A DNA stretch of 64,000 nt from Sclerodactyla briareus (Eukaryota; Echinodermata; Holothuroidea; Dendrochirotida; Sclerodactylidae): assembly GCA_026419785.1 (NCBI GenBank), contig JAODTK010004298.1, positions 62,001-126,000 on the forward strand. The letters run 5' to 3'. The notes under the pieces are model-generated. The model made no database searches, was not told the DNA's origin, and worked only from the letters and a program-made list of their open reading frames with translations. The translations under genes and the position numbers were made by a program. Positions 3,912-51,488 of this stretch are shown one piece after another; the stretch's first letter is position 1; every line of letters begins with the position of its first letter.

Positions 3912-4512
3912 ACGCGACCCGCTCGGTACGTGTGTTTGTTCTAGCGAACCGCTCAGTACGTGTGTTTGTTCTAGCGAACCGCTCAGTACGTGTGTTTGTT
4001 CTAGCGAACCGCTCGGTACGTGGGGTTGTTCTAGCGAACCGCTCGGTACGTGTGTTTGTTTTAGCGAACCGCTCGGTACGTGTGTTTGTTCTAGCGAACC
4101 GCTCGGTACGTGTGTTGTTCTAGCGAACCGCTCGGTACGGGTGTTTGTTCTAGCGAACCGCTCGGTACGTGTGTTTGTTTTAGCGAACCGCTCGGTACGT
4201 GTGTTGTTCTAGCGACCCGCTCGGTACGTGTGTTTGTTCTAGCGACCCGCTCGGTACGTGGGGTTGTTCTAGCGAACCGCTCGGTACGTGTGTTTGTTCT
4301 AGCGAACCGCTCGGTACGTGGGGTTGTTCTAGCGAACCGCTCGGTACGTGTGTTTGTTCTAGCGAACGCTCGGTACTTGTGTTTGTTCTAGCGAACCGCT
4401 CGGTACTTGTGTTTGTTCTAGCGAACCGCTCAGTACGTGTGTTTGTTCTAGCGAACCGCTCGGTACGTGTGTTTGTTTTAGCGAACCGCTCGGTACGTGT
4501 GTTTGTTCTCCT
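3912..4512 (+). repeat. 30-bp minisatellite, about 20 copies
   Basis: The unit is GCGAACCGCTCGGTACGTGT followed by GTTTGTTCTA, 30 bp in total. It repeats head to tail about twenty times. Variants include CAGTACG for CGGTACG, TGGGG for TGTGTTT, GCGACCC for GCGAACC, TTTTA for TTCTA, and copies one or two bases short that shift the reading frame. Because the unit is a multiple of three it creates long open frames on both strands (a ten-residue period containing ANRSVRVFV). These are by-products of the repeat and not evidence of a protein. Each unit contains a GTAC centre in a CG-rich context. Confidence 0.97.
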
Positions 4513-20000: not shown

Positions 20001-20009
20001 TGGCGACTT

Positions 20010-30770: not shown

Positions 30771-30990
30771 AAAGCGTCACAAATACTTTAGATATAGTAG
30801 CACCCACCCCCTCTATGTTCCAGAGCATTTCAGAACAGATGAAAGCTGAAGAATAATTCGTGGCGGCTCTCAAAGGATCCGGCAGACAGTAGATTTCCTT
30901 GGCTGCCTTTCGGGGATCGTCTGTTCAGTTTCTGTTCTGTTCGTTGGTGGTGGTCTAGTCCGAGCGACTGATCGCTCTGGCAGTGACCGA

Positions 30991-31389
30991 CTACTCTCCG
31001 AAAGAAGAAACTACATGTTCAGTGTAAGCGTTCGTTTGTGGTCTGCTGTAGATGAGCTTCGTTATTCCACGTTCGCACTCTGTTCTTTCTATTCTAGCGC
31101 CTGCCTCCGGTCTTACCGGTATATCAGTGAGATGATTACTAATGTCCATCCTCCCCAGTTCTCGATTCCGATCACTCGAGATTTCATCGAGGGAATTTCG
31201 TATTGCTTGGCAGTGGCACTCGACTTCCGTCCTGATCAAATCGTATTTTTCATTTGACAAGCCTTCTCTCAAATCGACGCATTCGAATTTAGAGAGAGTC
31301 GCATGGGCTGTCCCAGTCGAAGGCCAGGCGGTTTCCTCCCCGAGAAGAATCAGAAGAATCGGCTTGTTCAAAACATCAGCCAAGTTGAA
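30991..31389 (-). CDS. TIR domain 2, C-terminal half and probable terminal exon
   Basis: After an acceptor ending ACATCAG it reads in phase 0 FNLADVLNKPILLILLGEET then AWPSTGTAHATLSKF. It aligns with IYLANMLNKPDIPLLMENIA WP of the 33.1 kb exon, with the same exon start position and phase. The frame then runs on for about 95 residues without similarity to the first TIR and stops at TAG near 30,993. Either this is a genuine divergent C-terminal tail or the true exon end lies earlier. No poly(A) signal was confirmed. Confidence 0.6.
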   Translation of the reverse strand, partial: FNLADVLNKPILLILLGEETAWPSTGTAHATLSKFECVDLREGLSNEKYDLIRTEVECHCQAIRNSLDEISSDRNRELGRMDISNHLTDIPVRPEAGARIERTECERGITKLIYSRPQTNAYTEHVVSSFGE

Positions 31390-34300
31390 CTGATGTCTAC
31401 ACTGCGACGACAAGAAATACTTTGTAGAAATACATGCGACGAAGACCTGAAGAAAATGGAGAACGGAGAATGTTATGAAACCTATCTTACTTGTAATTCA
31501 CTAGTTTAGGCAGAAAGCGATCCCGTCATTGACAGATATATTCCTCTGACAAAGTATCAACATATACCACCGATGTAATACATTCAACGAGCAATGGAGT
31601 GCGATTGTTTCTAATCAGTTAAACTATCGGCTAATATTTTGTTTTATGAACTGATATACGGCTTCACAACAATATACGTGAATGTTATATGTTCCATTAA
31701 CATGTTGTTTAATATTTAATGTTCCAGTGCATCAATTACTAACTGTACAGCATCAATTCAGTTAGATGCTTTGACTTCGAATATGAGTGCTTGTCGGCGG
31801 AGACATGGAAAGTGATGCGCTGTGTACACTCCGCGTCAGGATAGTAAAGAAAAAACTTCACGGTAGGATACAAGTGGGCCTATCACAGGTGGGCCTATGA
31901 CATAGATGTATACATTTATTTCTCCGTAAATGCAAAAACAAAAGTTACTTAAACGTGTTGGACGTATCTGACGAATTTGCACTGAATGTTTACATATATA
32001 CTAGGACCTCAATTCCTTTCCTCATATGAACCACTGCACTAAAAATTAGGAGGAAGATGAAAATCACTGATATAACAACAATGTGTATTGATAGTTGGGA
32101 ACAGCCTACCAACCTTGGATTTGCCGATCGCCTTCTCGGCAAGAATTCGTGTTTGAGGTCGCTGCGAGCCCATACTACACTTGTACCCACTCTCTGTAAG
32201 TCGACTGTAGAGATCTGAAGCATCTGATTGGCATCCCGCTGGTACGAGATGAAAACATCCTCAATGGCCTTCGAAATGAAAAGTAATGTACGTTACAGTG
32301 TATTCGTTCTTCATGAGGATGACAGATGAAAAATGTATGTATTTTCTCTCGTGACAGTTAATTATTGGCCGTGAAAAGCTCCCGTGTATTGTTCGCATCA
32401 ATTTGACTCCTATACATATGACCAAAATTTCACTCACCGGTTCTGAGTCTGCTCCACTTTGTTCATCTGGTGGGTGATCTGAAAAGTAATTGCAATGTAA
32501 ATTATATATATATATATATATATAATATATATATATATATTATATATATAATATATATATATATATAGATATATATATATATTATATATATATATATTAT
32601 ATATATATATATATATCTATATATATTATATATATATATATAATATATATATATATTATATAATATATATATATACAACCCCCCCCCCCCCCCCAAATAT
32701 ATGCAAAATTATGTAAACTCGAAATATTATATGTCACAGCCCCATGCGCGAACTGCACTACAATGACCAGAGGATAGCAACTATACTACAGTTGGTATTA
32801 GTACATATAGAAAACCCATTCCAGTGCCCTAAGCCTGTAAATATTGTAATTACGTAATTATAAAAGTGTCATTGTCATTCGTACTGAGCATTTGTACTAA
32901 ATGTTTCACCTACCCTTGGTGAGGTCAAGGTCTGATGTAGCATAATATATAATTTGCTCGAGCAAGTCTTGAAGTATTTCTTCTGGCCAGAGTTTCTTTT
33001 CTCTTGCGTCGTTGTCGTCCGAGTAAAACCGCGTGGGGAGTAGTTGCGCGAAAATCGTACTCGTAGGCCAAGCTATGTTTTCCATCAGAAGCGGAATATC
33101 GGGTTTGTTCAACATATTTGCTAAGTAAATCTGCATGAAGAAATGTAATTACGATAACAACAATAATTAGGATGACAACAATGAGTTTGGTTGGAATCAT
33201 GAACAACACAGACACCAATGAGGATATGAGTATAGTGGCAGGGGTGCCAGCGCCAGAAAAGTATCTGTAAGTATCTGTAAGTAATACAGGAATCAGTGAC
33301 GGATGATTCGTAAAGATAGAATTGATAAAGTTGGAGGCAGTGTAGCAGTGTTTATTAAGAATACATTAGTTTTATTCGACATTCCAAGTATGAATCTGAT
33401 AAAGTTGAGGCGATTTGGGTGGAGTTAATGTTACCTGATATAAAAAATGTATTACTGTGCATCTTGTACCGCCCCCCTAATTCAACATCAGACTGGATTA
33501 ACCACTTTCACGACATGGTAGCTGCCCCGTTTAACTCTTTTTCAGACATAGTTATTATGGGGGACTTTAATCTGAATTTATTAGATGGTAACAATAAAAA
33601 GTGGTTGCTGGACCTTGAAATGTATAATCTAAAACAGGTTGTGAATGTCCCAACCAGGGTAACCAATCTATCATGTTCCTCATTAGATCATATTTATACA
33701 ACAAGATTAAGTAGAATGGTAGATGTTGAGGTGCCGAAAATTAGCATGAGTGACCACTACCCTATTTACTTTAAGTGGAAATAGTTTTCTACTCATTGTC
33801 CAAGCTCTAAGAAGAATGTCATGAAGTTATGAAATATCGTGACGTAAAGAAATTAAATATAGATGCGTTTAAGTAGGACCTGAGAAATTGTGATTGGAAA
33901 TCTGTTCTGTATGAAAACAGACACGAACAGGGTAACAAACTGGATGAACAAATTTTTTTTTCTTTATTATTTGTCGATATTTTAAATAAACATGCCCCAC
34001 TTAAAGAAGAAAGGGTCCAAAAGAAAAACCAACCAATTTGGTTTAACGAGGAGATTAGACAGGCTATCAAGAAGAGAAATGCATTACAAAGAATTGATCA
34101 GCAGTTATATCGCTTCTGCTGTAACAAGTAAGTGACTTTGATTAGATCCGCCAAAAAAGGTTACTTTAAGGATTCTATCTGCAAGGGCATGGGTGATTCG
34201 AAGGCTATCTGGAAGCTGCTTAAAAACGCCCAATCCAACGACACCAACATGCAATGCCAACACATAAATTAATACAATAATTAGTGATGATAATGATCTT

Positions 34301-37300
34301 TTGTCTAGTCCCGTTAAGATTGCTGAAGCTTTTAATGAATTCTTACGTCTGTATCATCAAATATGCTGTTGATGACAAGTCGAACATCGAAAATAAATCT
34401 CTGCTGGGTAGTGGTCACGAATTGATCCACTAAATTAGTGATTGTGCTAGTTTAACAAATTCCAGCGGTTTCTAACGATTTTGTATTGAAATCCCTTGTT
34501 GAATTAGACACTAGTAAGGCCACTGGCCTGGATGAAATAAGCGCTTATGTTTTAAATATTTCGGCTGCTGAAATAGCTGAGAGCATCACTCATATATTAA
34601 ACAGTAGTATCAGGAGTTCAATCTTTCCCACCCTGTGGAAAAAGGCTAAGATTGTCCCTATTTTTTAAAGTGGGTCCCATCTTATGTTTCGAATTATCGA
34701 CCCATCTCAATCATGCCGGTGTTATCGAAGCTTTTAGAAAAACATGTACATGGTGCTTTAATTAAGTTCTTAAATGGCCATAAGCTTATACAGTTATACG
34801 GGCGGCTCAGTCTGGATTTAGAGATTCACCTATAATAATGGAGTGCTCTCACCCCCTCTGTCTGTGACATGTGGGGTTCCGCACGGGTCGATCCTGGGGT
34901 CCATTAGTTATTTAGGTTATTAATAAATGACATGGAACAAGTCATCAGTCACTGTACAGCAGATATGTATGCTGACGATACAACATTACACATGAAAGGC
35001 AAATCTGTAGACGAATTAAATGTACACCTTTAATGAAGATATGGACAGAGTGGTTGATACTTGGGGTTTATATCGATAGCGAGTTGTCCTGGGTTATCAT
35101 GTCGACTCTGTTGGCAAGATTGTGTCCTCAAGATTAGCCCTCCTCAGACGTATTAAACCATATTTGATATGAAAACATGTATATTGTACTATCATGGATA
35201 TATTCGACCAATATTAGAGTATTGTAATTTAGTATGGGGCGAATGCAACGCCACCAATGCCCTCAGACTTACGCGTTTACACAAAGTCTGCCGCTAGAAT
35301 AATTCTCAATGCCATTTCATCCACTTTCAACGATAGGTCTGAAGGCCCATTTCGCACTCTAAACTGGTCTTCTCTTGAACGAAGTCTGAGCTATAAAAGT
35401 TTGGTGATGGTGTACAAAATATTGAATGGGCTAGCACCCCAGTACCTTAGGGAATGTTTCGGTTCATTGGCGATGTACTTGGTCACTCCCTGCGGTCTAC
35501 CACCCAAAACAACTTGTTTCTGGAGGGTGGGAAACCCAGTACGGCATCAAATCGTTGTTCTCTCTACATAGCATCCAAAAATGGGGAACGTCTACCGATG
35601 GTATGTAAAAGCGCCAACTGCCTTAGCCACGTTTAAACGACTTATTAACGAGTTTTATTAAGAGGTCTTTCTTTTACTGTGAATTATATGTGAGTTATAT
35701 TTTTTTTAGTGTTTTATATATTTTATAATTGTTCTTTCTGAACGTTTCTACGACCATCTATGTTCCTTAATTTTCTTTTACAATTTACTTTGTCTTTTTA
35801 CAAGGGCCTCGGCTGAGATTAGCGTCACCGCTAACCGATTTCTTACCCTTAATGTTTAAATAAAATGAAACATATAGCAGGGGCGGTATATATATAGGTT
35901 GATGGAAAGGGGGAATGTGCCCTCTCTCTCACCCCGATGGAGAAACTTTGAGGAATAATACAACTTGGTTGAAAAAAAAAAAAACCGGTCCGGTGACCGT
36001 CGGAGTTATTTTTAGAAATGAATTACGAAGATTAAAGCAGTATGCTCCATTCTCGGTTTGATATCTAACCAAAGATTTCCGGGAAGGACACCAGTGAGGG
36101 AAAGAGTATAGGATGAACACGGCAAGGTGCAGGTGTGCGGCTGGGTGCAGTGAATGTCGGGCGTCAAATTTCTTGCCCGCGACCCCACCCCCCGCTCTCC
36201 CCTTCGGAAAAGCTGGGACAGCGCCTTTTGGGCAAATTCTGCGTCCCCACCTCGGAGGGAATAGACAGCTTTTGAAATCACCTATCGAAATGTGAGTTGA
36301 CTGGTTGTCAGTGATAGAGCTTTGATGCAATCAAGTACAGATAAAACTATCAATATTACTCCTCATGGCCAAATTCGAGCAACTCTATCTAAATAGGTAT
36401 TGCAATAAATATGGAGTTTACTTTAGAATGTTGTCAGATTTTTAATCTCTATATCAATCTCTATACTACCAGTGTATCGTAGAAACAGGCATCTATCGGT
36501 GAAGTTGTAAACCCAGCTCTATCAAAATACGGAGGAGATAACAGTTTGTGAAACAATGTTATATACGGTACCTCTTTAAGGCAGGATTCTGACTGGGCGT
36601 ACTTCTCAGTGACCATGCACAGAACGACTTTAGTAGCTCTCATGGCAATGCTGCTTCCATCAATGTGTTCATTGCTGTCTGCCATTTGACCGATGTCCAC
36701 CCAGCAACGATACCCAGCCATCTCCAAATAATCCTTGATGACCTTTACTTCAGGTTGATTATCCGAGTGGTAGCTGATGAAGATTGCACAATGTTGATCG
36801 GGTGCCTCATGAGTTGCCTTCGAAGGTAATTCTCCTATTGCAGTCGAATGGAATACGAGGGAGTGTGAAAGTCATCGGCCGTAATGAGGAGAATGTTCCT
36901 TCGAGAAAATTCTAAGTGAGATATCGATCAGTATATATAATATCTACTGACATGACTGGTGCATAACAATATTTCGGGCGTACCCAAATTATATTCATTC
37001 ACCATGAACATGGCATTCACAGGTGTAGTAAAGTGGCTACGAGAAGGGAGTACACAGCCCATACCTTTAATCAATCAGAACAGAGTATTTGCAATAATGG
37101 ATAATGGGGTTGTATAATTTCCAATAACTACTGACTCCGTTGCCTTTCCCGGAATAAACTGCATTGTCACGGTATCTTCCCAAAATCCCCTTCGGACACC
37201 AGGCCCATGTATACAACTGTGTACATAGATGGTACTGCACACTGTGGGAGGCCAGTGAAGCCGTTGCTACACCATGTGTACAACTATACCAATATATTGC

Positions 37301-40300
37301 TGAATTTCAATATCACTTGAGCAGAGCGCCATCGTATTGTCATCAGTCGAGCAAACTCGCCGACCGCTTGACTAGTATTCATTATACCAGAACAGGAAAG
37401 TTATCTCGCCAATTTACAATGAATTGAAATGACTGAATGACTGAATACGCTGGTTAGAAGACGCTCGAGGAAATTGCATTACTCGGCTGATAATTTCTTC
37501 TAAAATTTCTCCATTGCGAACTGGTGTGTAAAATTTATACTATGTGAGTCGTCTGGAAATATTAATAACAGTGTAACTGTGTAAGTCTCAGCTGTTTTGC
37601 TACATGGTTGTCAATTCCATGGGGGGGGGGGGGGGGGGTGGGGGCATCCATTTTAAGAAGTGGTTGACACTTAGACAGGAGTGTGATCGCACCACCGTGT
37701 GTATTAGTCACCCTTCGATTAATCCTGAATTTAGGCGCTGTGAGTCGTTTCACATGCGAGGGTGGTGAATTGTTGGGAGCAGGCTCATGGGGAGGGGCGT
37801 AATTTCTAGCATGAGCGCAGCCACACTGTTGGGGTTCTAGAGTAACAAGGAGGATGAGGGGGAGGAGGGGAAGAACACTTTTTTGCGGGAGATTACATCT
37901 GTCGATGAACCTCAAAAATATAGGCGTACGGCTTCGAAATACAAAGAGAAAGTACACCATTGTTTCGGGTACCAATTCAAGGTCATTTGAGGTCAGGAGA
38001 GGTCAGCAAACAGGAAAGCTTGTGCGCACGATATCAGAAGATTCAAAGCAGCAATCAACTACAATGTAGGAATAGAGGCTGCATATATGATGAGATGAAT
38101 CCTTAATATTACTATAATCAGCTTGAGGTCAAGAGTGGTCGGATTATAAAAACAAAACTGAGGAACAATATTGGTATCCATGTGATGGCTTCAAAAATGG
38201 AGAAAACCCCTTTTATCGCCAGGGCTAGTTGAAGGTTGTTCAAGGGGTTACACAAGTTGGTATTGTTTTGAGTAAGGTAACTAATCCCTAAGCACAGTTC
38301 TGTCCATGTGTTGATATATTCCGCTCTTGGATCCAACTAAATCTTATTTTGTGGCGTGTTTTATTCTTGTTTGTTCTGCTGGTAACACTGGGACAAATAG
38401 AAAGTCGAGATACGAGAAATAGGAGGCGCTATTGCAAATAAAGAAATCGATAGAAATGAAACATTTCTCGGACAAGGCCCTGACTACCTAAATATTCAAT
38501 CTCGTTAGAGAATGTGGTAAGGCGTAATTGGTTTAGCTTTAAGGTCAAGAGTGTTGAAATCGTAAAAAAACGAACCTGTGAAACAATATATGGCAGGTAG
38601 GTTATACCATGTGATGGTTTCAAAAATGGAGAAACCCCCTTTTATCGCCAGGGCTAGTTGAAGGTTGTTCAAGGGGTTACACAAGTTGGTATTGTTTTGA
38701 GTAAGGTAAGCAATCACTAGCACAATTTTGTTCATGTCTTAATATATTTCGCTCTTGGATACAACAACCACAATCTAAATTTGTGGCGTGTTTTATTTTC
38801 GTTGTTCTGCCGGTAATACTGGGACAAATATAAAGTCGAGGAAGAGAAATAGGAGGCGCTATTGCAAATAAAGAAATCGATAAAAATGAAAATATCCTGG
38901 AGACTACCCAAATATCCAGAATGTGGTAAGGCGTAATTAATTTTGAAATAATATTTAATATGGTATCGCCAGACCCAGTGCCCTCTTTTGGAGGTCTTTG
39001 GAAGTGTAGGGTGTGACTTTGAAGATTATGATTTCTTCTGATGATTATATATATAAAAAATCCAATCAGCAAACTCATTATCAGTCATGATATCGTGAAA
39101 TTAGCCAGACTTATTATTACGCAACGTGGGGGGGGGGGGTAGAAATGGACCTGCTCAATGCAAAGTCAATGCGATTTTTTTTACCCTGTCACACGGGGAT
39201 GGTGACCATGATTTCAAGGAAAAAAAATCTTAAATTGAAAAATCCTCAAGAATTAATAATGCAAGCAATAATTCATCGCTTGTAAACTCAATAGCAAAAT
39301 TTATTTGGTTCCCCTTGTCATTGGACCTAAACGATTAATGTTCATACCACAGAAATCTATTTCTGTGTTATGGAACCATTGTTCAATCTCGTTTCGAAAC
39401 GAACCATGCACGGTATTTGAATAATGCTACTTTACACTTTCATTGACCTTTTGAGATTGAAGGCACACACACGATGTACCTTACCTTCGGCCTCGAGTGC
39501 CTTCTCCAAAATTTGAACGGCCTTTGTTCTCCCCATGTCTTGTAGAGCCGAGAGTATAGCAAACGTCGCATCACTGTCGTTGCGTGCAGAGTACCATTCT
39601 GCTAGTATGGCGATAGTAGGATTGAGAGAGAGAGCGCGCAGTTACGGACATCTTCACTAGAGTAACCCAAGCGTAGCGCCAGATACCGCCAATCCATATG
39701 CACCTCGCACGTTCATGATCGCTGCAAGATCACGTGACCATTTCGGTATCTTGATGATTGTCTGAAAGCAAATAAGATACAATTACCCGTCTTTGCGAAC
39801 ATATTATTTTACTCAGACAGACACAAATTACCACCTCGAAATGTTGTAGGTAAATCATTTTCACCTAGATATTTTATTCATTCAGATTGATCTATTGATC
39901 TTAATCAGACATGTTAGGCCCATATGTGAAATGTTCAAATGTAGTATGGCCCACGAGTCACAGTGGCGCCGTCGGACTATCGGTTGACCGTCGGACTATC
40001 GTCGGAAAATTAGAGCCATGATACCTTCAAAATTCCCGTTAATTGCACCTTTTTTTTCTTTTCAGTTTCAACAAGTACTGGGTGGCGATATTCACTGTTC
40101 ACTGGGGCCTACCAAAGTCTGCGCACGAGGCCAACAAGTGCGCCGTCCTCTGTTATGCTGACTCCTGCCGAGTATAGTTCCATGATTCTTCAAATTCAAA
40201 TTAATTATGAATAATACTATGAATAAATAAACATGAATAAACATCTGGCAAGACGTCTTTCCACCAGGTAGGACAAAATCTTACTTTCGTGACAGATTGG

Positions 40301-43300
40301 CTTTTTGCATCTTTCGCTCCTACATCTTTTCCCACTATCGCCACCTCTGTTTGTTCTTCCGCAATTCTTTCTCCTGCTTGTTCGTCTGAAGTAAGGTCAT
40401 CATCATCATCCCGGGTTCTATGAGAGTTGGGCGCAATTTTACAAAATTGTTAGTAAATATACTAGTTTCTTTTCCATTTTGCATTACTGGCCTCGTTCGG
40501 AATCAATCCACGATCATGTGGCTTGTCGAATGAAACCGGCACTTGAGAACATTCAATAATGATATGAATATAAAATAAGCGACCATAACGCAACCGGTAT
40601 CGTTCAAACTTCCGAGAACCAAATCAAATCGTCGTAGTTTTGAAAGTAGCATTTTCTGCAACGATACAACCTAATGGATCTATTCCTCTTTGGTGAGCAT
40701 TTTGGTAACAACGCCCACTGTTGTATCACTATTGTTGTTAATCACAATAGCTACCACATTTCTATTTCCTTCATACCTGCCAGAAAGAAGATGATGCTAT
40801 AGAGAGGTCACGAAGCTCTAATTAAAAAAAAAACGGAGCATATTTTGAGATTCTTCAGTAACGAAAAGGAAAAGGAAATTAAGTCTCTTTAAGGTTACAA
40901 AAACATATTGCCTGAGTCAGCAGGCGAGAGCAGAATTGGTGAATATAAACCAAAATATATATTTCTGAAATTTTGCATCACATTGGGATTATAATTGGTT
41001 GACAATTTATGTATGTTCTTTATTAACGGTAAATGAATCTCCGTTCTTCTCAGGACAGGTCAAATCCAATGTCATTTAAGGTCAAACATATTCCTCTGGA
41101 ACACCATATAAACACGCATGTGGCTTGACTGCTAATGAGATGGAATTGAGTTCAATAATCATCCGACTCGTGGAAGGCATGATATTTCCCAATAAAGTAA
41201 ATTGGTGTAATTTGAGTTTAACTATATTACCGTCTGGATGTTGAGTTGCTAGTGCCTGGTTGGAGAAAAAAATGTGTGTTACCTTTTCGTTTCGGAGGGA
41301 GGGGGGGGGGGTGAGGGGTGGGGATGAGTTAAATGTGGTACATTAAACAAGTCTCCATATATAGGTTGAGTCTGACGTTTTGAGGGTCACCAACAGAGAC
41401 AATGTTCGGTATGGACTGTAGCGACGTGCAGAGAGCTCAATACACTGCGATTCCAATCCAGAATGTCTAGAATCATCATATAATTCCATACTGTCATCTC
41501 CTATCATATCCAGTATGAGTCTGATGGTGCTGCTTGGTTTATGTTTGTCTCGCTTCTCTGCCTCAATCGTCGTCTCGAGAAGTCTGAGTTCCTTCCCAAC
41601 TTCTCGCCGATGGTTTCATCTCAAAGAGCGACCAGGGCCGCTCGGTTTAATATCCGATTGCTTGCAACCTTTTCGCCATTGCCCGTAGACAACGACTGGC
41701 ATCGTCCTAAAGGGACGGTAATGAATTATCAAGATCATGTGAAACCATGAAAGTTGTGGTATTCGTCGGTTTTATAAGGGTAAACAAATAATTAATGAAA
41801 CATAATTCGCTCAATTCCACTAAGGGAAAAAAGAGCGTGCTGCCCGGCAGAAGTTCTGCCTATTGCCACTAAGCTCCGGACTTTCTGTACTGGCAGGCTC
41901 TATGCGGAGCAGAAGACAGTGTGAAGTGGAACCGTGTTGGGTTGCGTATTGCCCCAACGCGCCCCCACTAACAGTAGTTTCATAATGACATGCGTTTTGG
42001 GCGACATGATTCACATTCTGTCCAAAAATATTATAATTTGTTCTGTTTGACGGGCTCTTCTAGTTGAGTTCACATAAATTAGCTCTAGTTCGCTCCGTGA
42101 TGGTATACGTCATGGTGTTCCTACTACTAGACGCAAACGACTTTTATTCTCGAAATAATTATGTGTTTCTGGTGCTTCCGAATTGATCAACTACCACTCA
42201 CGGAAGATGTTCCGAATAGAACTATGGAGCGACAAAAGTATGCGTCGGAGCATATGTCGAAGAAATTCGCAGATAGTGAGTAAACAAGCTGAATGTGTTT
42301 CACTATGTTACACACAGTAGTGCGCCTCCTCACTTTGAGTTTGACGTCTCTCACGGGATTTTGGACAGGGCACACAATACGCAATCTAATATCCTCACCA
42401 GTTAAAATAATAGCTCCATGGTTGCCGCCTACAACCAATAATACTTTTTCGGTTTATGGGCATTCGAGGGACTATGAATCAGCATACAAGGCATCGCACC
42501 GACCCCCCAAAAATTTTTTTTTTTTTTCCCCCCGAAGGACTAGACAGCTGGAGATGCGGAGAATCGGAAGTCCCAATCGCTTCAGTTTTGTTAGTTTTTT
42601 CTTTTTTTCTTCAGCAAAAATTAGTTCTACAATTCTCCAACATCAATAAACCACCATTGTAAGCCCTAAATGGGTGTAACAGGGACTTTTGCTGCTCCAC
42701 AGTTGACATGATACGAGGAAGACTTTACTGATCAATAATGTGTATATTTGCTAAACCCCGCGGAACGCTATCAGCCTAAATTGGAGTATATACGACAGTT
42801 TTGAAGCGAAGCGTGTTTGCATTTAAGCGCGTGATGAGTTACATTCGGGTGCCCCTAAATTCTGGGCCTTCCAGTACGAGTCAAACTAAAATTGGTATCA
42901 TGATAAACTGTTCCTTTAATTCTCTATTTTGGTTAATTTCTTTGCCCAGTTCTGTACTGTACCGGTTCCCAATTCACCGCAATTTTATTTTTTCCCTGGC
43001 ACCCGCCAGTATAAACTCGACGACAACTATAACTACAGACCTGCTACACAATAATTCCAAATGGCCTCCTAGAGACAACTGCAGGTTCGATGTAATAGAC
43101 TGGGGTTATTTCATTTGGGAATTGAAAACTCTTTATTCTTGAGATACAACCCCAATTTCATACAATGTTCGTATGTGGGGTATTAGCGTTCCCAGATTGG
43201 TACATTAGGCAGAGACCTTGGGGGGAATCCCTATTGCGCAATGACGGACACAGTTCAAACGAGACAGATAATAATATTATGTATTTCCATTGTTTCATTG

Positions 43301-46300
43301 TGTGAAAACATTCCGCAGAAATTTGTTTTTCTCTCACCGAAGTAACCACCGACACCTACCAACCAACACAGCAATCCTCTCCTATAAAGATAAAATTTTT
43401 CAAAGCTGGAATGTTTGTTGTACATTACAATGGAATGAAGAATATTTGCAGGGTTGTGCAAATATGACATCAATTTGAATATTGCCGTGCTTTTTTCCAG
43501 TCTTACACTACACATGCACAAGCTCATAGGCAGAAAGGAAAATGCCGCTAACTCCGTAACGGGCTAATTGTTGATGACAAGCATTGTCGATGATCAAGGA
43601 TTTCCACTTACCTTGCTCAAGACCAATATTTGCCCAGGTTTTAGCCGCATAGCCAGTGCATCTGAACCCTGTCCCATGTCTTGTAGAAGTTCTTTGTAGT
43701 ACCTGGATATTTCTTCTGTGTAGGTATTTGATATTTAGCTATGACATGTACACTAAGTATACGTTGGATGCACTACGCAGGTCATGTACGATGTTGGCCA
43801 TTCATTGGAGAATTTCTGTAAGTAAAATTCATTGGACATCCTTCACATGATAAGTCACTGATTTTCATAGCCCATCAGTACTAATGATAAGAGCTCCCTG
43901 ACCTTTATATAAGTTGTTTCTGATATAATTTATAGTTTCGTCACACAGGATTTTGATGTTGAACTACACAACTTGTTCAGTAGTTAGTGGTGCGTGGTTC
44001 GACACGTGGGCTGTATGATCAGTATTTATCAGTTGTTACTTTTGGGAGTCTGGGTATCGGTTGGATTGGATGGAGAGGAATGGATACCTCGTTACAAAAA
44101 TATATAAATGTGTGGGAAAAACTGAACTCAAGACACCAAAGCACCCAAACTGGGGGTGGTAAATAAAACATCGAATAAACGTACGTCTATAGTCATGCAC
44201 AAATCACAATCGACAGTCTTTTAATTACCGGTACCACGTACTGGCAATCTGCGTCCATGACAGCCAGTTATACACCAAGACGTGTTATGATTCACGGTTA
44301 ATTCACCGTACACTACCCAAATAACGGCAACGTAATGGCAACAATGGACGCAAACTGCCTATGAGTTACCAATATTCACAGGCAGCAGTGCACTTTACAA
44401 GTTATAGCATCGCTCATTGGTTGATGAGAAAAAATTGTTCCATGATATTATGTGTCCATTATGATGTTATGAATTTCGGGAAGAGCGCTGATTGCTTTCT
44501 GTGAAAGGGATTTTTGGGAGGAGGAAAGGAATACTTACTATTCCATATCATAAGCCCCCAAATAATTGTGATAATCAACTTTGTCTGATTCTACCTCAGA
44601 TTTTGATGAGGATGTGATGCCATTCGGGGGCATCTCAGTTGGAGCAAATTTAGGTTCGTATTTACCGGTGTAGCAGTAGTTTAAGGAAGTGTTCTCCATA
44701 ATAAACTCACTCACTGGAACGGCCTAAGACATTGGACGCACCGTACAATTTTGAAGCATCGGTATAGGTTTGGGATACTTTTCATCTGCTGAAGCGAAAA
44801 CAAGTTCCATCGCTCAAATAAACAAGAGATCACACGTACGAGGAACAGTGGTGATTGGTACACTTAAGAAAAACACCGACAGGGTGATTCCTCGGACCGC
44901 AGTGAAAATAAATTACCTTTGGATATTTCTTGGCAATCTCACCCAGTAACACGTACATGTAGGTCTTCTCTATGTCATCCATGTCTTCGAAACTTTCATA
45001 TATTTGGTCCATCTACAAATGATCCGATGCGCAGTAGCTAGATACAGGGGTTTCAGCAACACTAAAACAGAAAGTGTGTACAGGGAATTGAGAAGCAGTG
45101 TTGAGAGAACATAACTCTGAAGATTTACTACAATAATATCATTAATTTCCTTCGACCACCATTTGAAACAAGAGATAGGAATGTGCATTGGTACAACGCA
45201 GCTATATCGCGGCAGCTGAGGGACACGAAAATCCATTTTCATGGTAAATGACTTAGGTGTGTGTCAACACGTCACAGTGAAATCCAAGAGAAAAAGTAGT
45301 AGTAGGGACGTGGGAAAAGAGAAGAAAGGAAATTATCGTGGAAGAGGATAACTCAGATCAGGGGTGGCGCCACGGGAGGGGGGGGGGGGCAGGGAGGGCG
45401 GGCTGCCCCCCCCTATGAGTTTGGAGCCGAAAAAATAAAATCGACCCAGAATGATTTTTATGTTTAATGCACACGGTTTTCGGTCGGGGGTGGTTGAAGT
45501 GTCAAAATACGTTATCCAACTTAGGTTATTTTTTATGCGTTCTCATCGAGACTCAAATCGAGACTCAACCTGTAATATAGCGTTCGCAAATAGCGTATGT
45601 TTACCAGGGCCGTAGCGAACGGGGGGGGGGGTGATTCACGCCCCTCCCAATAATTTCATGCCGGTCGGTCGGCCTGTCGGTCGGTCTGTCGGCGAAAAGG
45701 AGAAAGAGGAAGGAAAAGAAGAGGAAAAAAGGGGAGAAGGAAGAGAAAAGGAAAAGAGGAGAGGAGGAAAAGAAGAAAGAGGAAGGGAAGGAAAAAGGGA
45801 AGTAAGGGAAGGAAAAGGGGGAGGGAGGCCGGGAGTGAAGTGGAATGGAAGAAAGAAATAACGGAAGCCAGACTTTATTATCGGCTATTTCGATTTATGG
45901 CTCTTCATCTAATTGAACCATTGAGCGTCGGCAAGAGAACGGCACACCGGCAAAAATTAGATAATTTGACCGCCCGTCGATCGCCGTCGGTGTAAGTGGA
46001 CGAGTGACCGATTCTGTCGGCATTTCGGCAAAGTGGAAATGAAGGCGTACGTTAGCGTTTGACATTCCTAAATTTTTTTTTTAATCAGTTCTTTGACAGT
46101 TTACACTCCCCAACCCCTCCCCCCCCAAAAAAAAAAAAAACCCTTCGCGACAAACGCCCATGATGTTTACTGTTTTGAGAACCTGTGGTCATTATGAGGT
46201 GAAAGGACTCAGTGTTAACTTGCGAAGTTCGCAGCGCCTTCCGGCCTTATATGTGTGACCACGTGGCATGCGTGATCAGCCGACACATGCCGATTTACGC

Positions 46301-49300
46301 CATTAGCTATCTTCGAATTTGCCTTAGTACACAATTTTGGGCATAGGTAAGCCTGCCTACCTGTACAGAACTAGGTGCAGTTTCATCGGGTCTATTTTTT
46401 GTCAGGTGTATCGAATGAAATATGACCTGCCTGGAAAAATTGTCATGCATTTAAATTTTTTCCAGAAATTTATGTATTTTTGTCAAAACTCGTTGACGTG
46501 ATACAATTACAAAGTGCATCTAATGACGCACCATTTTGCATCTAAGCAGTATTAATGACTCAAAAAATCGCAGAGGGGAGGGGGACACCCTCGCCCCTTA
46601 GGACCCTCCCCCATGTCGGACATCCGAGTCAAATCTGCCCCCCCCCCCTATCGTAAAACCCTGGCGCCGCCCCTGACTGAGATTATGTACGGTGGTTCGC
46701 GGAATGTTAACTAGCGCTAATGAATGCAGAGCGTTGCATAATCCGAAAAATAGAATATGAGAATAATGGTCGTTGTGGTGCTCAAAATAATGATTACAAC
46801 GACCATGGTAGTCATGAAGATAATTATAAAGATGAGGGTGAGGGAGGATATATCTCGCTACCAAGTCATCGCCATCAATTCATGTTTATGTGATATTTCC
46901 GGTACTAGACTCACTTCCGAGTAGAGTCCTCCCTTTCCGTCTAGATATCCCGCAACACGTCGTCTGCGCATGAGGCCAACAGGTCAATCTGATCATATAT
47001 TTGGGCCACTGCAGTCACTGCAGCCTCTTCTAAAGTTTTCACTTCACAATTCATGAGACGAACCGTTCCAGGAGGAAATCTTGATCAAAATCCTTCTGGA
47101 AGAGTGCTGTGGAAAGACAAATTAATCAAGGAACAAGGTGGACGCTTCAATCTCTTTCCATCCCACAGCATAAAAAAACGCAGGAACGCGTTTGCATAGG
47201 TTATTCCAGGCGTTCGCCCACCCTGGTTTGGTTGTTCATTCGACTGAATGCTACGGATCAGGGCATTCCAAGTGAGGCTCATCGAGGCAAACCCCTTACA
47301 TTATTGGTCGTGGCTGATTTGCTGCGATAACTCGCCTTTTCTTTCCTACTAGTGCTCAGATGATACGAGGCAGGGGTTGGTACCCATCATTCCTGGTCAC
47401 GGGACCGTCCATTCCAAGAGAAGATAATGAACCCCAGGACTGACCCATTTCTCAGAACCTAGGAGCAGTGGAAGATTTCACAACGTTGACTGCTCACCAG
47501 CCAAACCGGTGATTGGACGCATTGCTAAAATCCTGCCTAAACAAACCCCGTAGTAACCCAGAAAACCTCCACTGACTTACAGCGGAAACCATGAAGGTGG
47601 AGACCAAGACCTCGACCCATCGCAACTGCAAAGTACATCCACTACGAAGAAAAAGTCAGTGATGCTGGAATGGGAAACCCCCCGGATGGTTCCTGTTGCA
47701 AAGCGGCACTGATACCACTCTACATTCTTCCGCCCACTACTGAAAGAATTGTTCAGTATTAGATGCAAACTGTCCTGGTAGGTAGACATGACCAGTAACA
47801 TATTAAAGTATAACCTCACAATAATCAAGCAGCAACGTCAATGTCAGGTTGAGGGTCTCTGATGGAGACCGAGGAAGGGTGCCAACACTTCCGCTCGTAA
47901 CCCTGCCTGGCGGTGGTTTAAGGGAGATGCTTTGTACACACGCGTTCGATAGAATGTGATGCAACAAAACTGGTCTCGTCCGTTTTCGGCCTATAGACAA
48001 CAAACAGTCCCACCGTTCCAATACTGAATAAACTCAGCTACAAAACCAATAATGTTCATTACAGAACAAGTAACGATGAAGCTCTTGCACTCTATGACTC
48101 AACCTTTACACAGTGGCCATTATGATGTGGGAGCTATGTTACTATATCCAGTGGCTGATCCGTGTGAATCTTTGGTGATGCAGTGATTAAATATTCTGCT
48201 CAGTTCGACTGGCGCTAGTCTACGGCAAAATGGGGAAGGCAAATATCGTAGCTCAATTCATTGCTACGTGAAAATTGCCTACATTACGAATAAAATGAAT
48301 CTAGTCTTTAAAAAGTATATCTTCATTTGGTCACGCCACAGTGAAAAAACGAATTTTATTTTGAAGAATCGTTGCTGACTAAATGTGATCATTTGTCGTA
48401 AACAAGTATTTTTCAGTTATAGAAAACTGCAGTCAGAGGAAAACTATGAAGGAAATTAAGAAATAAAACTCATTTCACATTGGATGTTGAACATAGATAA
48501 TGCTGGCGATTTAGGAGAGCCGAGTTGAAAAAACAACAAAATAGACCTTATGGGTATATCAAGTGGACGCGAAAACACACAGCCTTGATGGAGTCATTGA
48601 ACAGATGCGTATGTCATATAGTGTGGTAAACTGAGGTCCTCTCGTTCAGTCACCCTGACGATAGGCACGTGGTACGTACGCGCACCTCAAACTGCGCGCT
48701 CAATGTTTTTTTATGACTGTTACCTTGGACCTTTGTGACCTACTGCTTCGGTCATTAGTCCTCATTACTCACAAGCCTACCTCGTCCCAGGGCAGCTATC
48801 GTTGCGCAGAAAGAAAGAGAAGTCCACTTTCCGTTGGAATTATTCGTCAGGTCAATATCCTGAATCCACTTGAACATTTATCGTAGAGCGTGGCGATTTC
48901 AGTTGAAGCCTGCAAGAAGACATTCCATTCCGACTTCTGTGATTAATTAGGACGAAACTAAATGATAAATTCTCCGATTATAGCAAATTCACTGATTGTT
49001 ATTATCTTTCCGTGATATGGACTGTAGTTATGGAATTTAGTTGATAACCCTCTTGTGGCCTAGTCCGACATTTTCACTTAATATCTTATCAGTTTCTTCG
49101 TGTTTGGCAGCTAATATCTGACATTCTACGTCATCGATGGATTATAAGCCGCAACATGTTGAATACGTCAGGTGAGTAGATGTTTATCAACACAACACAT
49201 ACGTTTCAAGGAGTTGTCTTCCCAGATACTCTACGACGAACGGAGGATAGCATCGGCTTATGAGGGGAATCATCAATCCCAGGGGGAAGTTATGATATGA

Positions 49301-51488
49301 AGTTTGTATTTTCTAACAATTAATTACCATGGGCCAGACCCGCAGAACCTAGAACCAATTTGAGCTTAATTACGTGTGTGACAAAGTCCCAGCTTGATGT
49401 ACCGTGAAGCGCCTAATCACGTTGGCTGCAATCGAGGAATTCGGTATGAACCGACAGCGCCAAGAGTTGTAAAGATGTAACAATAATAATCTCCCATTTG
49501 ATTGAAAATAAGTTCAGTTCAACTGGAGGGCAGTGAGCTTTATGTTAGTGAGCCTTTTTCTTAGAGATTCGAGGAAGTTATTTCAGTCTCGATGATCATT
49601 GGTCAGCGCAATCGGAGTTGAATTATGACTTGTTATTGTCTGCACCATACCTTTGGACTCCCGTATAGTAATTTACTGTTTCAAACTAGAAATGCGCAGG
49701 CGGGTGAACCGCCCGAGTGATTATCCCCACAGAAAAAGCTTTTGTGGACCTTGTTTAGAGGATCACATGTGCCTCCAGTGATTGGAAATGCCTTACCAGT
49801 TGTCAGGTTCAACTGAGTCCCACATTCTCAATTTTTGTTGAAAGTACGACTAAGTAGAAAAAAATCGATGCATATATGCAAAAGGACCCCTGTGTGACCT
49901 TGAAAAGACTTCATGTTGTTCAGGACTAACAAAAAACAGTCACACCACCGAGTTTTTGTGCAAATTCTGACAAAGTTATGAAAAATGATCGCGAAAAAAC
50001 ACTAATTTGACTCTGGTGACCTTGAAATCATTCATCAGTAAATCGGAACCAACTTTCGTCCCACCCATCAAGTTTTGTGTGAATCGGGTCTTAACTCTGT
50101 ATTTTCGCAAGAGAAAAAACCAAATGTGAACCTCCGGTGACCTTTAAACACGGTCATGTTTGTGGGGACAAACTTTTGGTCCCACCCAAAAACCCAGCAA
50201 GTAAACTCAGTATTTTCGATGTGAAACTCGCAAAATAGAGGGCAGCAGACGCAGTGAGGGTTCTCGAACTCATCCGAGATTTCATAGGGCGGACAAGTTT
50301 TTAGTGATCAATCGAAATGAACGCCAGCGTTTTCAAGAGATCTGCCCTACCGCCTAAGTTTCGCGACGGCGGCGAGTACACCCCCAAAAACCATTATTAT
50401 CTCCGAACACTTAAAGGACAAATGCAGGCTGGATACAACAATAGTTTTATAAGTTTATAAGTTCATAATTGAAATCTGTGGAGAATTGAAAACTGCATCT
50501 ATATGTCCAAACCCATTTCAATACGATGTTTCTTTATAGTTATTGGCTGTCAATAACGCTAATGACGCCAAATCGACAACCCAGGAAATTATGTTTATGT
50601 TCATTGTTTCATTTTATTGAATTAGTTCAACATTTAGCGGAAGTTCCGATGTCTTTCTCTCACCAAAGTAACCATCAAAAACTACCAAACCCACAACAGA
50701 AATCCTCTCCCATAGACTGAAACCTGTTCAAAGTGAAAATAATGTGGGGAATTTTCAATAGATATATATAAAGAAGTTTACAGGGTTGTGCCAAGAAGAC
50801 TTATTATTATTGCCATGATGGATGCATTCCTGCGGAATACACACTGCACAAACTTCAAAGGGACTGTAACTCTTTAACGGGAAAGAGCGGAAACTTCGGG
50901 TTGGACGGGCGCATTCAGTGTTTCTCCAGCAATTTATTAGCCCTTTATATGAGGTATCATGATTCAGAGTCATGATTTATTGTTCATGAGTTCTATCAGA
51001 TAACTGTGTGCACAGAATGGCCAGCCAAAATCAGTTTAAATAACAAGTGTGGGTATGGCCATGGAAAATCGGGGTCACATTTCGGGCGGAAAATGGTTCC
51101 TACAAAGCAACGTTCTATGCTAACATGAAGTCGGTTGGAAATACATGATATATTGCAGCATCTAACTTCTGTTTCGTGTTCACCAGCAACTTCTAAATTG
51201 AGCAATGAAACTCGGCGCACAGCCTTTCTTTTTTGTCAGTTTATGTAACTAGCATCCATGGGTGACAATAAGGCAACACAGCCATTGTGGATTTCCTGTG
51301 ACGTCCTAGGGGTAACCACGGGAGCCCCATTGGGACCCGACGTCTATGTGGAACGAGTACCTATGAATGGCTCGGATATAAAACTTACGAAATGATTAAA
51401 AGATATACTCTCACCTACCGTGTTGGATTTTCGGGGCAGCCTTCGCATTGTTCACCGTCGTGACGTCATTTGTCTCATATTCACCCAT
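30991..51488 (-). CDS. Helical-repeat / death domain / tandem TIR protein (multi-exon gene model)
   Basis: Exons on the minus strand, in transcription order: 51,496-51,419; 47,106-46,959; 45,012-44,917; 44,723-44,539; 43,715-43,612; about 40,420-40,290; 39,761-39,485; 36,834-36,572; 33,130-32,914; 32,478-32,438; 32,268 to about 32,090; 31,389-30,991. Domain order is helical repeats, acidic linker, death domain, TIR, short linker, second TIR. Phases agree at 51.4/47.1, 47.0/45.0, 44.9/44.7, 40.3/39.8, 39.5/36.8, 36.6/33.1, 32.9/32.5 and 32.4/32.3 kb. They do not agree at 44.5/43.7 or 43.6/40.4 kb, so an exon or indel is missed there. Death plus TIR suggests a cytoplasmic innate-immune or cell-death adaptor or enzyme. 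MyD88 lacks the repeats, and SARM1 has SAM domains where this has a death domain. Frame breaks in at least three exons (47.0, 39.6 and 32.2 kb) leave it open whether the gene is live. Confidence 0.7.
32090..32268 (-). CDS. TIR domain 2, N-terminal half, damaged
   Basis: After a TTCGAAG acceptor it reads AIEDVFISYQRDANQ, a good TIR box 1. A frame change at CAGATGCTT then gives SDLYSRLTESGYKCSMGSQ (alpha-A, beta-B) and EKAIGKSK, as in TIR domain 1. Beyond KSK the TIR pattern is lost. A GTTGGT at that point could be a donor, but the segment carrying the expected beta-C and the catalytic-type Glu is absent. The exon looks truncated or pseudogenised. The 77-codon open frame here (to 31,990) with a hydrophobic stretch is probably read-through and not a real membrane segment. 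Confidence 0.6.
32438..32478 (-). CDS. 41-nt linker exon between the two TIR domains
   Basis: A short exon with excellent signals: TTACTTTTCAG| before and CCG|GTGAGTG after. Phases match on both sides (split Asp codon in, phase 0 out), giving D|HPPDEQSGADSEP|. The acidic, proline-containing peptide fits a flexible interdomain linker. The phase match on both sides is the best evidence that both TIR modules belong to one transcript. Confidence 0.7.
32503..32677. repeat. (TA)n microsatellite
   Basis: About 175 bp of imperfect TA repeat in the 435-bp intron between TIR domain 1 and the linker exon, followed directly by a C tract. The poly-Tyr/Ile frame on the minus strand is an artefact of the repeat. 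Confidence 0.98.
32679..32694 (+). repeat. Poly-C tract
   Basis: Sixteen C bases adjoin the TA microsatellite. Confidence 0.95.
32914..33130 (-). CDS. TIR domain 1, C-terminal half
   Basis: Acceptor CTTCATGCAG, donor AAGG|GTAGGT, 217 nt with no break. In phase 0 after ...CLKE it reads IYLANMLNKPDIPLLMENIA then WPTSTIFAQLLPTRFYSDD, later KKLWPEEILQDLLEQI. This is the second half of a TIR fold (helix C, beta-D with NKPDIPLLME, beta-E and the terminal helix). It ends in phase 1, and its final G plus AT of the next exon gives Asp. The intron before it (33,131-36,571) contains an antisense LINE. Confidence 0.88.
33285..35875 (+). mobile_element. CR1/L2-like LINE, 5'-truncated, antisense in the TIR intron
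   Basis: Endonuclease part, 33,300-33,784: IRKDRIDKVGGSVAVFIKN, then after one frame change KVEAIWVELMLPDIKNVLLC and ILYRPPNSTSDW, then IVIMGDFNLNLL, SSLDHIYTT and SDHYPI, all conserved APE-type endonuclease motifs. Reverse transcriptase part: KGYFKDSICKGMGDSKAIWK (about 34,155), STSKATG-like DTSKATGLDEISAYVL (34,507), CGVPHGSILG (34,870) and ADMYADDTTLH (34,960) with the YADD active site intact. C-terminal part (35,250-35,470): KSAARIILNAIS and VYKILNGLAPQYL. Stops and frameshifts occur throughout, so it is not active. It ends near AAATAAAATGAAA (35,858-35,870). Confidence 0.9.
35879..36300. repeat. Unidentified repeat-like segment
   Basis: It begins CAGGGGCGGTATATATATAG, resembling hAT-type ends, but I found no matching CCGCCCCTG end nearby. 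It contains a CCCCACCCCCCGCTCTCCCC tract and overlapping frames on both strands (133 codons on minus) with no recognised domain. Confidence 0.35.
36572..36834 (-). CDS. TIR domain 1, N-terminal half
   Basis: An unbroken 263-nt exon between CTGCAATAG and GAG|GTACCG. After a short linker (ELPSKATHEAPDQHC) it reads AIFISYHSDNQPEVKVIKDY then LEMAGYRCWVDIGQM (box 1 FISY, alpha-A, beta-B, BB loop), later ATKVVLCMVTEKYAQSESCL and KE. The final Glu (36,572-36,574) aligns with the catalytic glutamate of SARM1-type TIR NADases (the E in the WVHKE segment, E642 in human SARM1), as judged by its place before the next beta-strand. Phase 1 in and phase 0 out fit both neighbours. Confidence 0.88.
37621..37645 (+). 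repeat. Poly-G tract
   Basis: A near-pure G run of about 25 bases. Confidence 0.95.
38110..38945 (+). repeat. Two-copy tandem duplication, ~420-bp unit
   Basis: Copy 1 (about 38,125-38,535) and copy 2 (about 38,540-38,945) share long identical stretches, including CGCCAGGGCTAGTTGAAGGT followed by TGTTCAAGGGGTTACACAAG, and AGGAGGCGCTATTGCAAATA with AAGAAATCGATA. Divergence is low, so the duplication is recent. Both copies keep a minus-strand frame with LTQNNTNLCNPLNNLQLALA and IKG, but recent duplication alone explains this. Confidence 0.92.
39125..39480. other. Intronic non-coding stretch
   Basis: A G tract at about 39,128, then AT-rich DNA up to the death-domain exon donor. No feature was recognised. 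Confidence 0.35.
39485..39761 (-). CDS. Death-domain exon (two frame breaks)
   Basis: Acceptor TTTGCTTTCAG, donor GAAG|GTAAGG, 277 nt. It opens TIIKIPKWSRDLAAIMNVRG. After a one-base frame change it reads DWRYLALRLGYSSEDVRN, the W..LA..LGYS..DV core of death-fold helices 2-3. After a second change at a CTCTCTCTCT run it reads LNPTIAILAEWYSARN then DATFAILSALQDMGRTKAVQILE, which is helices 4-6 with the conserved Trp and the L..AL..MGR.DA pattern of death domains such as those of UNC5 and MyD88. The change at a dinucleotide run points to a read or assembly error as readily as to decay. It ends in phase 1, matching the TIR exon. Confidence 0.75.
40290..40424 (-). CDS. Acidic linker exon before the death domain
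   Basis: Acceptor CAACTCTCATAG and donor AAA|GTAAGA. The frame that stays open reads TRDDDDDLTSDEQAGERIAE then EQTEVAIVGKDVGAKDAKSQ and SVTK, a charged, disordered linker with a poly-Asp run encoded by GAT repeats. It ends in phase 0, matching the death-domain exon. Its start phase does not match the 43.6 kb exon, so one piece between them is missing from my model. Confidence 0.55.
40430..43065. other. Intronic stretch, no supported exon
   Basis: Poly-G (41,300-41,313) and poly-T (42,514-42,530) tracts are the only clear marks. Frames at 41,820-42,014 (minus), 42,187-42,438 (minus) and 42,293-42,649 (plus) overlap or carry no recognised motif. A missing exon of the death/TIR gene may lie here or at 43.7-44.5 kb, because the phases of its neighbours disagree. 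Confidence 0.3.
43070..43570 (+). repeat. Dispersed repeat family R3, copy 1
   Basis: Ordered landmarks shared with 50.4 and 59.75 kb: ACTGCAGG(C/T)T near the start, ...CCCATTTCAATACGATGTT-like, CTCACCGAAGTAACCACC, CTACCAACC with a following AATCCTCTCC, GCAGGGTTGTGCAAATATGA, ACACATGCACAAG and AACTCCGTAACGGG. The total is about 500 bp. No common reading frame is kept. Confidence 0.85.
43612..43715 (-). CDS. Exon of the death/TIR gene, helical
   Basis: Acceptor ACCTACACAG, donor AAG|GTAAGTGG. After two split-codon bases it encodes 34 residues: EISRYYKELLQDMGQGSDAL then AMRLKPGQILVLSK. The first half is a clear amphipathic helix. It ends in phase 0. No domain is recognised and the exon's membership rests on strand, order and splice signals. 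Confidence 0.5.
44539..44723 (-). CDS. Exon of the death/TIR gene, repeat end or linker
   Basis: The acceptor CCAATGTCTTAG is at 44,724-44,735 and the donor is ATA|GTAAGT. In phase 0 it continues the previous exon as ...KKYPK|AVPVSEFIMENTSLNYCYTG, then KYEPKFAPTEMPPNG, a Ser-rich stretch, and DKVDYHNYLGAYDME. The second half looks like a disordered linker. The exon ends in phase 2, which does not agree with the next recognised exon (43,715), where joining would create a stop. An unseen exon, an alternative donor, or an indel must be assumed. Confidence 0.5.
44917..45012 (-). CDS. Helical-repeat exon of the death/TIR gene
   Basis: Ninety-six bases, phase 0 at both ends, between TTTGTAG| and AAAG|GTAATT. 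It encodes 32 residues, MDQIYESFEDMDDIEKTYMY then VLLGEIAKKYPK. The pattern is that of a paired helix in an ARM/HEAT-type solenoid (a hydrophobic VLLGEIAKK helix ending in a Pro). The Met is internal and not necessarily a start. Confidence 0.65.
45351..45358 (+). repeat. Target-site duplication, left (ACTCAGAT)
   Basis: Eight bases directly before the hAT-like end, matching ACTGAGAT at 46,676-46,683 in seven of eight positions. Confidence 0.7.
45359..46675. mobile_element. hAT-like non-autonomous DNA transposon
   Basis: The left end reads CAGGGGTGGCGCCA and the right end reads CCCTGGCGCCGCCCCTG, forming inverted repeats of about 16 bp, each followed inward by a long G (or C) run. CAGGGGCGG ends are typical of hAT elements, and the flanking 8-bp near-identical repeats (ACTCAGAT / ACTGAGAT) fit hAT target-site duplications. 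Length is 1,317 bp. No transposase is seen. It lies in the intron between the 47.0 and 45.0 kb exons. Confidence 0.8.
45607..45870. repeat. Nested repeat start and purine-rich tract
   Basis: A sequence beginning CAGGGCCGTAGCGAACGGGG has the look of a second transposon end inside the hAT-like element. It is followed by a short GGTCGGTCGGCCTGTCGGTC repeat and about 160 bp of GGAAAAGAAG-type purine tract (45,695-45,855). The Glu/Lys/Arg-rich frame over this tract is low complexity and not a gene. Confidence 0.6.
46676..46683 (+). repeat. Target-site duplication, right (ACTGAGAT)
   Basis: It directly follows the CCCCTG right end of the hAT-like element. See the left copy. Confidence 0.7.
46959..47106 (-). 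CDS. Helical-repeat exon of the death/TIR gene (one frame break)
   Basis: The acceptor is CTTTCCACAG at 47,107-47,116. The exon opens ALFQKDFDQDFLLERFVS and then needs a one-base frame change to continue as MNCEVKTLEEAAVTAVAQIY followed by DQIDLLASCADD, an amphipathic alpha-helical pair reminiscent of ARM/HEAT repeats. It is taken to end at GACGAC|GTGTTG, a weak donor, in phase 0 as the following exon needs. An alternative frame runs on to a better donor (GAA|GTGAGT near 46,915). The frame break is either an assembly indel or a mutation. Confidence 0.5.
47210..47640 (-). repeat. SINE-like repeat family R2, copy 2
   Basis: On the minus strand it begins with GGATGTACTTTGCAGTTGCG and ATGGGTCGAGGTCTTGGTCT, continues through GGTTTCCGCTGTAA and GTGAGCAGTCAACG, and ends GATGAGCCTCACTTGGAATG, parallel to 30,370-30,770. 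It ends about 100 bp upstream of the 47.1 kb exon acceptor of the death/TIR gene. Confidence 0.7.
48020..49760. other. Intronic stretch, no supported exon
   Basis: No family-level similarity was seen. On the plus strand, 49,137-49,171 has an ATG frame of twelve codons reaching a perfect donor (CAG|GTGAGT), too little to call a gene. Confidence 0.3.
49765..50230 (+). repeat. Degenerate tandem array, four units of ~115-125 bp
   Basis: Units start near 49,771, 49,887, 50,012 and 50,130. Each has a core like CTCCGGTGACCTT(G/T)AAA, then a GG(A/T)..AACTTTCGTCCCACCC-like block and an A-rich (GAAAAAAC) end. Units differ widely, so the array is old. Arrays with a GTGACCTT core are frequent in invertebrate non-coding DNA. 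Confidence 0.7.
50405..50965 (+). repeat. Dispersed repeat family R3, copy 2
   Basis: It runs parallel to 43,070-43,570 and 59,745-60,330. Shared: AAATGCAGGCTGGATACAA, CCCATTTCAATACGATGTT, CTCACCAAAGTAACCATCAA, AAATCCTCTCCCATAGA, CAGGGTTGTG, ACTTCGGGTTGG and GCGCATTCAGT..TTCTCCAGC. Confidence 0.88.

Follow-up and report, generated by a model that had tools for sequence, protein, structure and literature searches.

An armadillo-Death-TIR-TIR locus with interrupted reading frames in the sea cucumber Sclerodactyla briareus

MyD88 consists of a Death domain followed by a TIR domain. In SARM1 an armadillo-type solenoid and SAM domains lie ahead of the TIR domain. The ARM-fold MyD88-like proteins of Aplysia have been described as having Death and TIR domains with an armadillo-type fold (PMC9334734); going by that description alone, they are likely members of the protein family considered here. 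We have analyzed a 64,000-nucleotide stretch of the Sclerodactyla briareus genome (assembly GCA_026419785.1, contig JAODTK010004298.1, positions 62,001-126,000), termed the window, and all locus coordinates below are positions within it. The window contains a locus at which armadillo-like repeat exons, a Death domain, and two TIR domains (TIR1 and TIR2) follow one another. We lean toward the view that this locus is a broken, degenerating copy of a divergent holothurian paralog of an old bilaterian family.

A single locus colinear with a sea cucumber protein

The locus lies on the minus strand and, read 5' to 3', comprises armadillo-like exons between 48,909 and 41,424, a Death exon, TIR1, TIR2, and a tail ending in the residues CRIL (30,873), with a stop codon at 30,872-30,870. 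This is the order found in P0033, an uncharacterized protein of 1,121 residues from Apostichopus japonicus, residue 184 of which falls at 48,909 and residue 1,121 at 30,873. A frameshift-tolerant spliced aligner requiring GT-AG introns gave a score of 1612 for P0033 at the locus, as against 315 for the reversed sequence and 308 for the other strand, with 941 codons matched and 441 of them identical. Because they are colinear with this one relative, all the pieces are, as judged by alignment, one gene. Chance open reading frames (ORFs) were ruled out by tblastn searches with relatives and by the spliced alignment against its controls. The presence of introns shows that the locus is not a processed copy. 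Six donor sites lie between supported exons. Four of them (48,773, 46,915, 43,612, and 39,485) are near the consensus, and the other two (36,572 and 32,114) are weaker. A tblastn search of both strands with nine relatives found no second family copy in the window, no other place scoring below E 0.6. A joined query matched nine proteins at E<=1e-5, their sources being sea urchins and sea cucumbers as well as a mussel and an oyster; seven have a Pfam Death domain, and P0007 and P0009 show TIR only.

A preliminary description of this DNA had placed a Death domain at 39.5-39.8 kb, and this is borne out by tblastn (Table 1) and by a Pfam Death match at 39,435-39,641 (minus strand, E 6.1e-4), although the latter is below Pfam's cut-off. 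The other domains that it named were recovered in part by the same Pfam search. TIR_2 was detected at 36,464-36,871 (minus strand, E 2.2e-12) and the C-terminal half of TIR_2, representing the second TIR, at 30,994-31,497 (minus strand, E 5.7e-4), again below the cut-off; the other seven pieces, three of them TIR parts, gave no TIR or Death match. The armadillo/HEAT-type repeat region is present as exons aligning to P0033 residues 184-545 (tblastn E from 5.5e-11 to 1e-3), its fold being predicted on the relative P0021.

Individual segments of P0033 were compared with shuffled queries (n = 6 for each segment tested). Residues 183-256 scored 112.5, against 23-38 for the shuffled queries. Residues 1-183 were not found upstream of 48,909 (105, close to 78-100), and the 5' end of the gene may fall outside the window. 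The coiled coil preceding the Death domain (residues 545-600) scored 41, barely above 27-39, and the linker between the TIRs (residues 857-884) was not found (17 versus 18-26). The limits of 30,991 and 51,488 given in the preliminary description therefore shift at both ends, with the tail extending beyond the first and nothing supported upstream of 48,909. Its statement that exon phases agree holds for the Death-TIR1 junction (1/1) and within both TIR1 (0/0) and TIR2 (0/0) but fails between the TIRs, where TIR1 ends in phase 1 and TIR2 starts in phase 0, leaving no in-phase join.

The exons are listed in Table 1 with other features of the window, in which no RNA family reached its gathering score and no tRNA was found.

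Table 1. Exons of the locus, followed by other features of the window
Feature	Position	Strand	Evidence and remarks
Repeat exon, P0033 184-226	48773..48909	-	Spliced alignment; two frameshifts
Repeat exon, P0033 227-256	48135..48219	-	tblastn P0033 228-262, E 5.8e-5
Repeat exon, P0033 268-332	46915..47106	-	tblastn E 5.5e-11; GTGAGT donor; three frameshifts (default alignment)
Repeat exon, P0033 333-377	44929..45061	-	tblastn E 7.2e-8, second part 21/28 identical; one frameshift
Repeat exon, P0033 390-451	43612..43792	-	tblastn E 0.001; GTAAGT donor; five frameshifts (default alignment)
Repeat-region end, P0033 452-545	41424..41706	-	Spliced alignment; two frameshifts; tblastn for start only, E 0.55
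Death exon	39485..39761	-	tblastn P0033 601-690, E 1.4e-19; Pfam Death; two frameshifts
TIR1 first exon	36572..36834	-	Open; Pfam TIR_2 E 2.2e-12 on ORF; tblastn E 1.9e-25; ADSN replaces GGGD; last residue is the Glu at the catalytic position
TIR1 second exon	32914..33130	-	Open; four residues shorter after WP; tblastn E 2e-16
TIR2 first exon	32114..32268	-	Spliced alignment; one frameshift; no row of its own in the tblastn matches listed
TIR2 second exon	31120..31446	-	Open; Gln at the catalytic-Glu position; tblastn P0033 937-1013, E 6.6e-15, 44%
C-terminal tail ending KSTVCRIL-stop	30870..31010	-	tblastn P0033 1079-1121, 44% identical, E 0.013; P0009 E 0.005
LINE-type (long interspersed nuclear element) endonuclease ORF	33359..33781	+	Pfam Exo_endo_phos_2 E 8.8e-7; in the intron between the TIR1 exons, opposite strand
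LINE reverse transcriptase end	35233..35568	+	By eye; no Pfam match
Adjacent direct repeats	38123..38529 / 38539..38938		81% identical; intron after Death exon
Minisatellite	3914..4509		30-base unit, 20 copies, 93% matches
Direct repeats	13766..15019 / 20008..21315		~71-72% identity; possibly old mobile-element copies
Direct repeats	18751..19390 / 21694..22389		~71-72% identity; possibly old mobile-element copies

An invertebrate family and its holothurian branch

A profile of the family matched 138 proteins at E<=1e-20. The best 120 of these 138 span eight phyla and include no vertebrate, arthropod, or nematode name, 11 of them being without an organism name. Eight phyla have named proteins among the matches listed for which Death and two TIR domains are predicted. 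Of 108 aligned members, 107 have residues in both TIR columns, and 98 end in a CaaX box, which a basic-serine stretch often precedes. P0011 of Strongylocentrotus purpuratus, deposited as MyD88-like protein L1, has the family domain order; the origin of that name was not found in literature searches. As far as these predicted proteins go, the layout is real and old, though the family has been little studied; many invertebrates have it, and it is no novelty of the holothurian lineage. Our literature search found no paper on tandem TIRs with HEAT repeats and a Death domain, and papers combining TIR, prenylation/CAAX, Death, and invertebrate terms are, judged by title, on other topics. From the way it is cited as the source of the term ecTIR-DC, Gerdol 2017 may already describe the family.

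Three quick trees, made without bootstrap, were used to place the window copy. In the repeat-part tree it joins P0033 (support by the Shimodaira-Hasegawa-like approximate likelihood ratio test, SH-aLRT, 100) inside a clade of five rows (99), made up of holothurian rows and P0022. It also joins P0033 in the Death-TIR1 tree (91), where its branch is very long. For TIR2 the tree marks the two as long rows and should not be relied on. These placements point to a holothurian source for the window. P0033 itself is 95-96% identical to P0021, another A. japonicus protein, over Death and TIR1 (TIR1, 95%) while the repeats are only 48% and TIR2 35% identical, a pattern that suggests gene conversion of the Death-TIR1 part in Apostichopus.

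Residue loss, broken frames, and the state of the copy

The window copy has lost many residues that the family conserves. Its TIR1 retains 34 of 52 conserved positions, the lowest count among 109 rows. Its Death domain, with 20 of 27, ranks third from the bottom among 109, and its TIR2, with 24 of 45, second from the bottom among 108, P0033 being the lowest. For the repeat part no more than five columns were available to the test, and the window row dropped out. The GGGD loop is lost from TIR1, and the catalytic position carries Glu in TIR1 and Gln in TIR2, the latter change being common to the window copy and P0033. A search of 928 candidates at E<=1e-10 for a diverged TIR2 of this kind returned P0033 alone; P0009, a shorter A. 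japonicus model under the length limit of that search, also has one. In the CRIL tail (a weak match, E 0.013) the Cys, the aliphatic residue, and the Leu fit the family box, and the Arg after the Cys is charged, as this residue is in none of the 98 relatives with a box. The CaaX pattern that we used bars Arg at this position, so CRIL would fail it. The C-terminal Cys-box of the family, these losses of conserved TIR residues, and the broken frames had gone unnoticed in the preliminary description, whose combination of Death, two TIRs, and helical-repeat-like exons on the minus strand stands as a layout but not as an intact coding sequence.

As assembled, the locus does not form a single open reading frame. 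The default alignment has 17 frameshifts, some of which the aligner may have produced where exons end or where repeats are poorly conserved; it has no stop in matched codons and one in an inserted codon. Five penalty sets gave 10-32 frameshifts and 0-4 stops. Two frame changes, with stops between, are required in the Death exon, one in the first TIR2 exon, and more in several repeat exons. When the 248 Death-TIR1 codons were allowed to drift neutrally from P0033 as ancestor to 60% identity, a mean of 5.9 stops arose and none of 150 runs was stop-free; at 80% and 90% identity, 3% and 17% were. The observed Death-TIR1 has no stop with 143 of 248 codons identical. Most of the change in the protein therefore came about with the frame intact, and the breaks either arose late or are absent from the animal's DNA. 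Repeats in the window, examined as a gauge of assembly error, gave 227 gap openings against 678 mismatches, a ratio that is not decisive because most pairs are at ~70% identity or come from one minisatellite.

These data are best read as those of a fast-changing, immune-type gene that was recently broken or is still breaking in this species: the TIR1 loop would have been lost, as that of TIR2 had been before, mostly with the frame kept, and the frame break would have followed, so that the window copy probably makes no full-length protein. Several observations favor a rival reading, a live, fast-evolving holothurian paralog whose frameshifts are assembly indel errors. Frameshifts outnumber stops whichever parameter set is used (by default, 17 against none), the stop-free Death-TIR1 is unmatched in the simulations to 60% identity, and both TIR1 exons and the second TIR2 exon are open. 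However, the frameshifts are unevenly spread, with none in the 804 nucleotides of these three exons, 17 in 2,424 nucleotides overall, and 5 in one 179-nucleotide exon (p ~0.001 for the 804 nucleotides under uniform errors, the grouping being post hoc). Conserved residues are lost also within the open TIR1 exons, and one parameter set gives 10 frameshifts with 4 stops. We accordingly regard a live gene as unlikely, though it deserves real weight. Slightly more doubtful still is the proposal that the family, ancient and probably anchored to membranes, gave rise to a decoy in this holothurian branch, TIR2 and then, in S. briareus, TIR1 losing the loop, and TIR2 the catalytic residue as well, while being translated for most of that time; such a copy may still act as a live dominant-negative regulator, its frameshifts being assembly errors or polymorphism.

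The mixed layout could also be taken for the product of a new, lineage-specific fusion between genes resembling MyD88 and SARM1, and the preliminary description had called the combination lineage-specific. We reject this explanation as wholly improbable, since Death with both TIRs is predicted in named proteins across eight phyla and the locus is colinear with the 1,121-residue sea cucumber protein.

Predicted mechanism and comparison with known systems

Intact members are predicted to comprise an armadillo/HEAT-type solenoid, a coiled coil, a Death domain, two TIRs, a flexible tail, and a CaaX box, and would be held at the membrane by a prenyl group. The solenoid would sense a ligand or keep the protein inactive, the Death domain and coil would drive oligomerization, and the clustered TIRs would signal by SARM1-like cleavage of nicotinamide adenine dinucleotide (NAD), by TIR assembly, or by both. 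TIR1 of P0011 has SARM1 as its best PDB sequence match (E 7.5e-5), and its TIR2 has bacterial TIRs (best E 5.8e-4; the NAD+ hydrolase AbTIR, 1.1e-3). The Glu of the SARM1 KE pair, which we take to be the catalytic residue, aligns with a family Glu in TIR1 of 108/108 relatives and in TIR2 of 106 of the 107 having a residue there. Four residues before this Glu, TIR1 has Asn in all 108 relatives and Ser in the window copy, where SARM1 has Trp. This Trp is described as a ligand-binding residue, and the presence of the TIR Glu as not tracking reported activity (PMC7075850). The Asn counts against NAD+ cleavage by family TIR1, and intact members may nonetheless cleave NAD+.

A different mechanism, which bears on intact members and not on the state of the window copy, is that they have no enzymatic activity and serve as adaptors of the MyD88 type, binding TLR TIRs and recruiting kinases with Death domains. 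The pairing of Death with TIR, the deposited name of the sea urchin member, the Asn in place of Trp, and a Hydra Toll-related TIR that a relative matches by fold all speak for it. Conversely, for P0033 and P0021 the fit of TIR_2 (PF13676) is much better than that of PF01582, although the latter is also listed for many members, and no MyD88 or TLR chain is named among the PDB sequences at E<=0.01 (19 for TIR1 and 8 for TIR2). An adaptor role is a serious possibility, though less likely than not.

In the P0033 lineage TIR2 lost its loop and catalytic Glu, and the paralog therefore probably became a scaffold or dampener. The branch formed by P0033 and the window copy would be a natural experiment in which one TIR was lost after the other. 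NAD cleavage by intact members, if real, would place Death-driven TIR enzymes in early bilaterians.

Among described proteins the window copy is closest to P0033, with which it is colinear from repeats to tail, shares a diverged TIR2 with Gln, and is paired in the repeat tree; P0033, however, is predicted to be unbroken and has a TIR1 close to that of P0021, whereas the window copy is frameshifted and its TIR1 lacks GGGD. P0011 and the wider family have the same domain order but are predicted to be unbroken, with GGGD and Glu in both TIRs and an uncharged residue after the CaaX Cys. The preliminary description was right that the locus is neither MyD88 nor SARM1 and mixes both layouts. MyD88 shares the order of Death then TIR, but has a single TIR after Death and no solenoid, where the window copy has two TIRs and repeat exons and the family has two TIRs best matched by TIR_2, a solenoid, and, in the relatives, a CaaX box. 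SARM1 shares the armadillo-type solenoid ahead of TIR, is the best sequence match of family TIR1, and has its Glu aligned; it differs in that the family has Death, a second TIR, CaaX, and Asn rather than Trp before the Glu. No SAM domain was detected by Pfam at E<=0.01 in P0033 and P0021, which show Death. The family thus has the plan of SARM1 (solenoid, oligomerizer, TIR) with Death in place of the SAM domains, a doubled TIR, and commonly a CaaX box.
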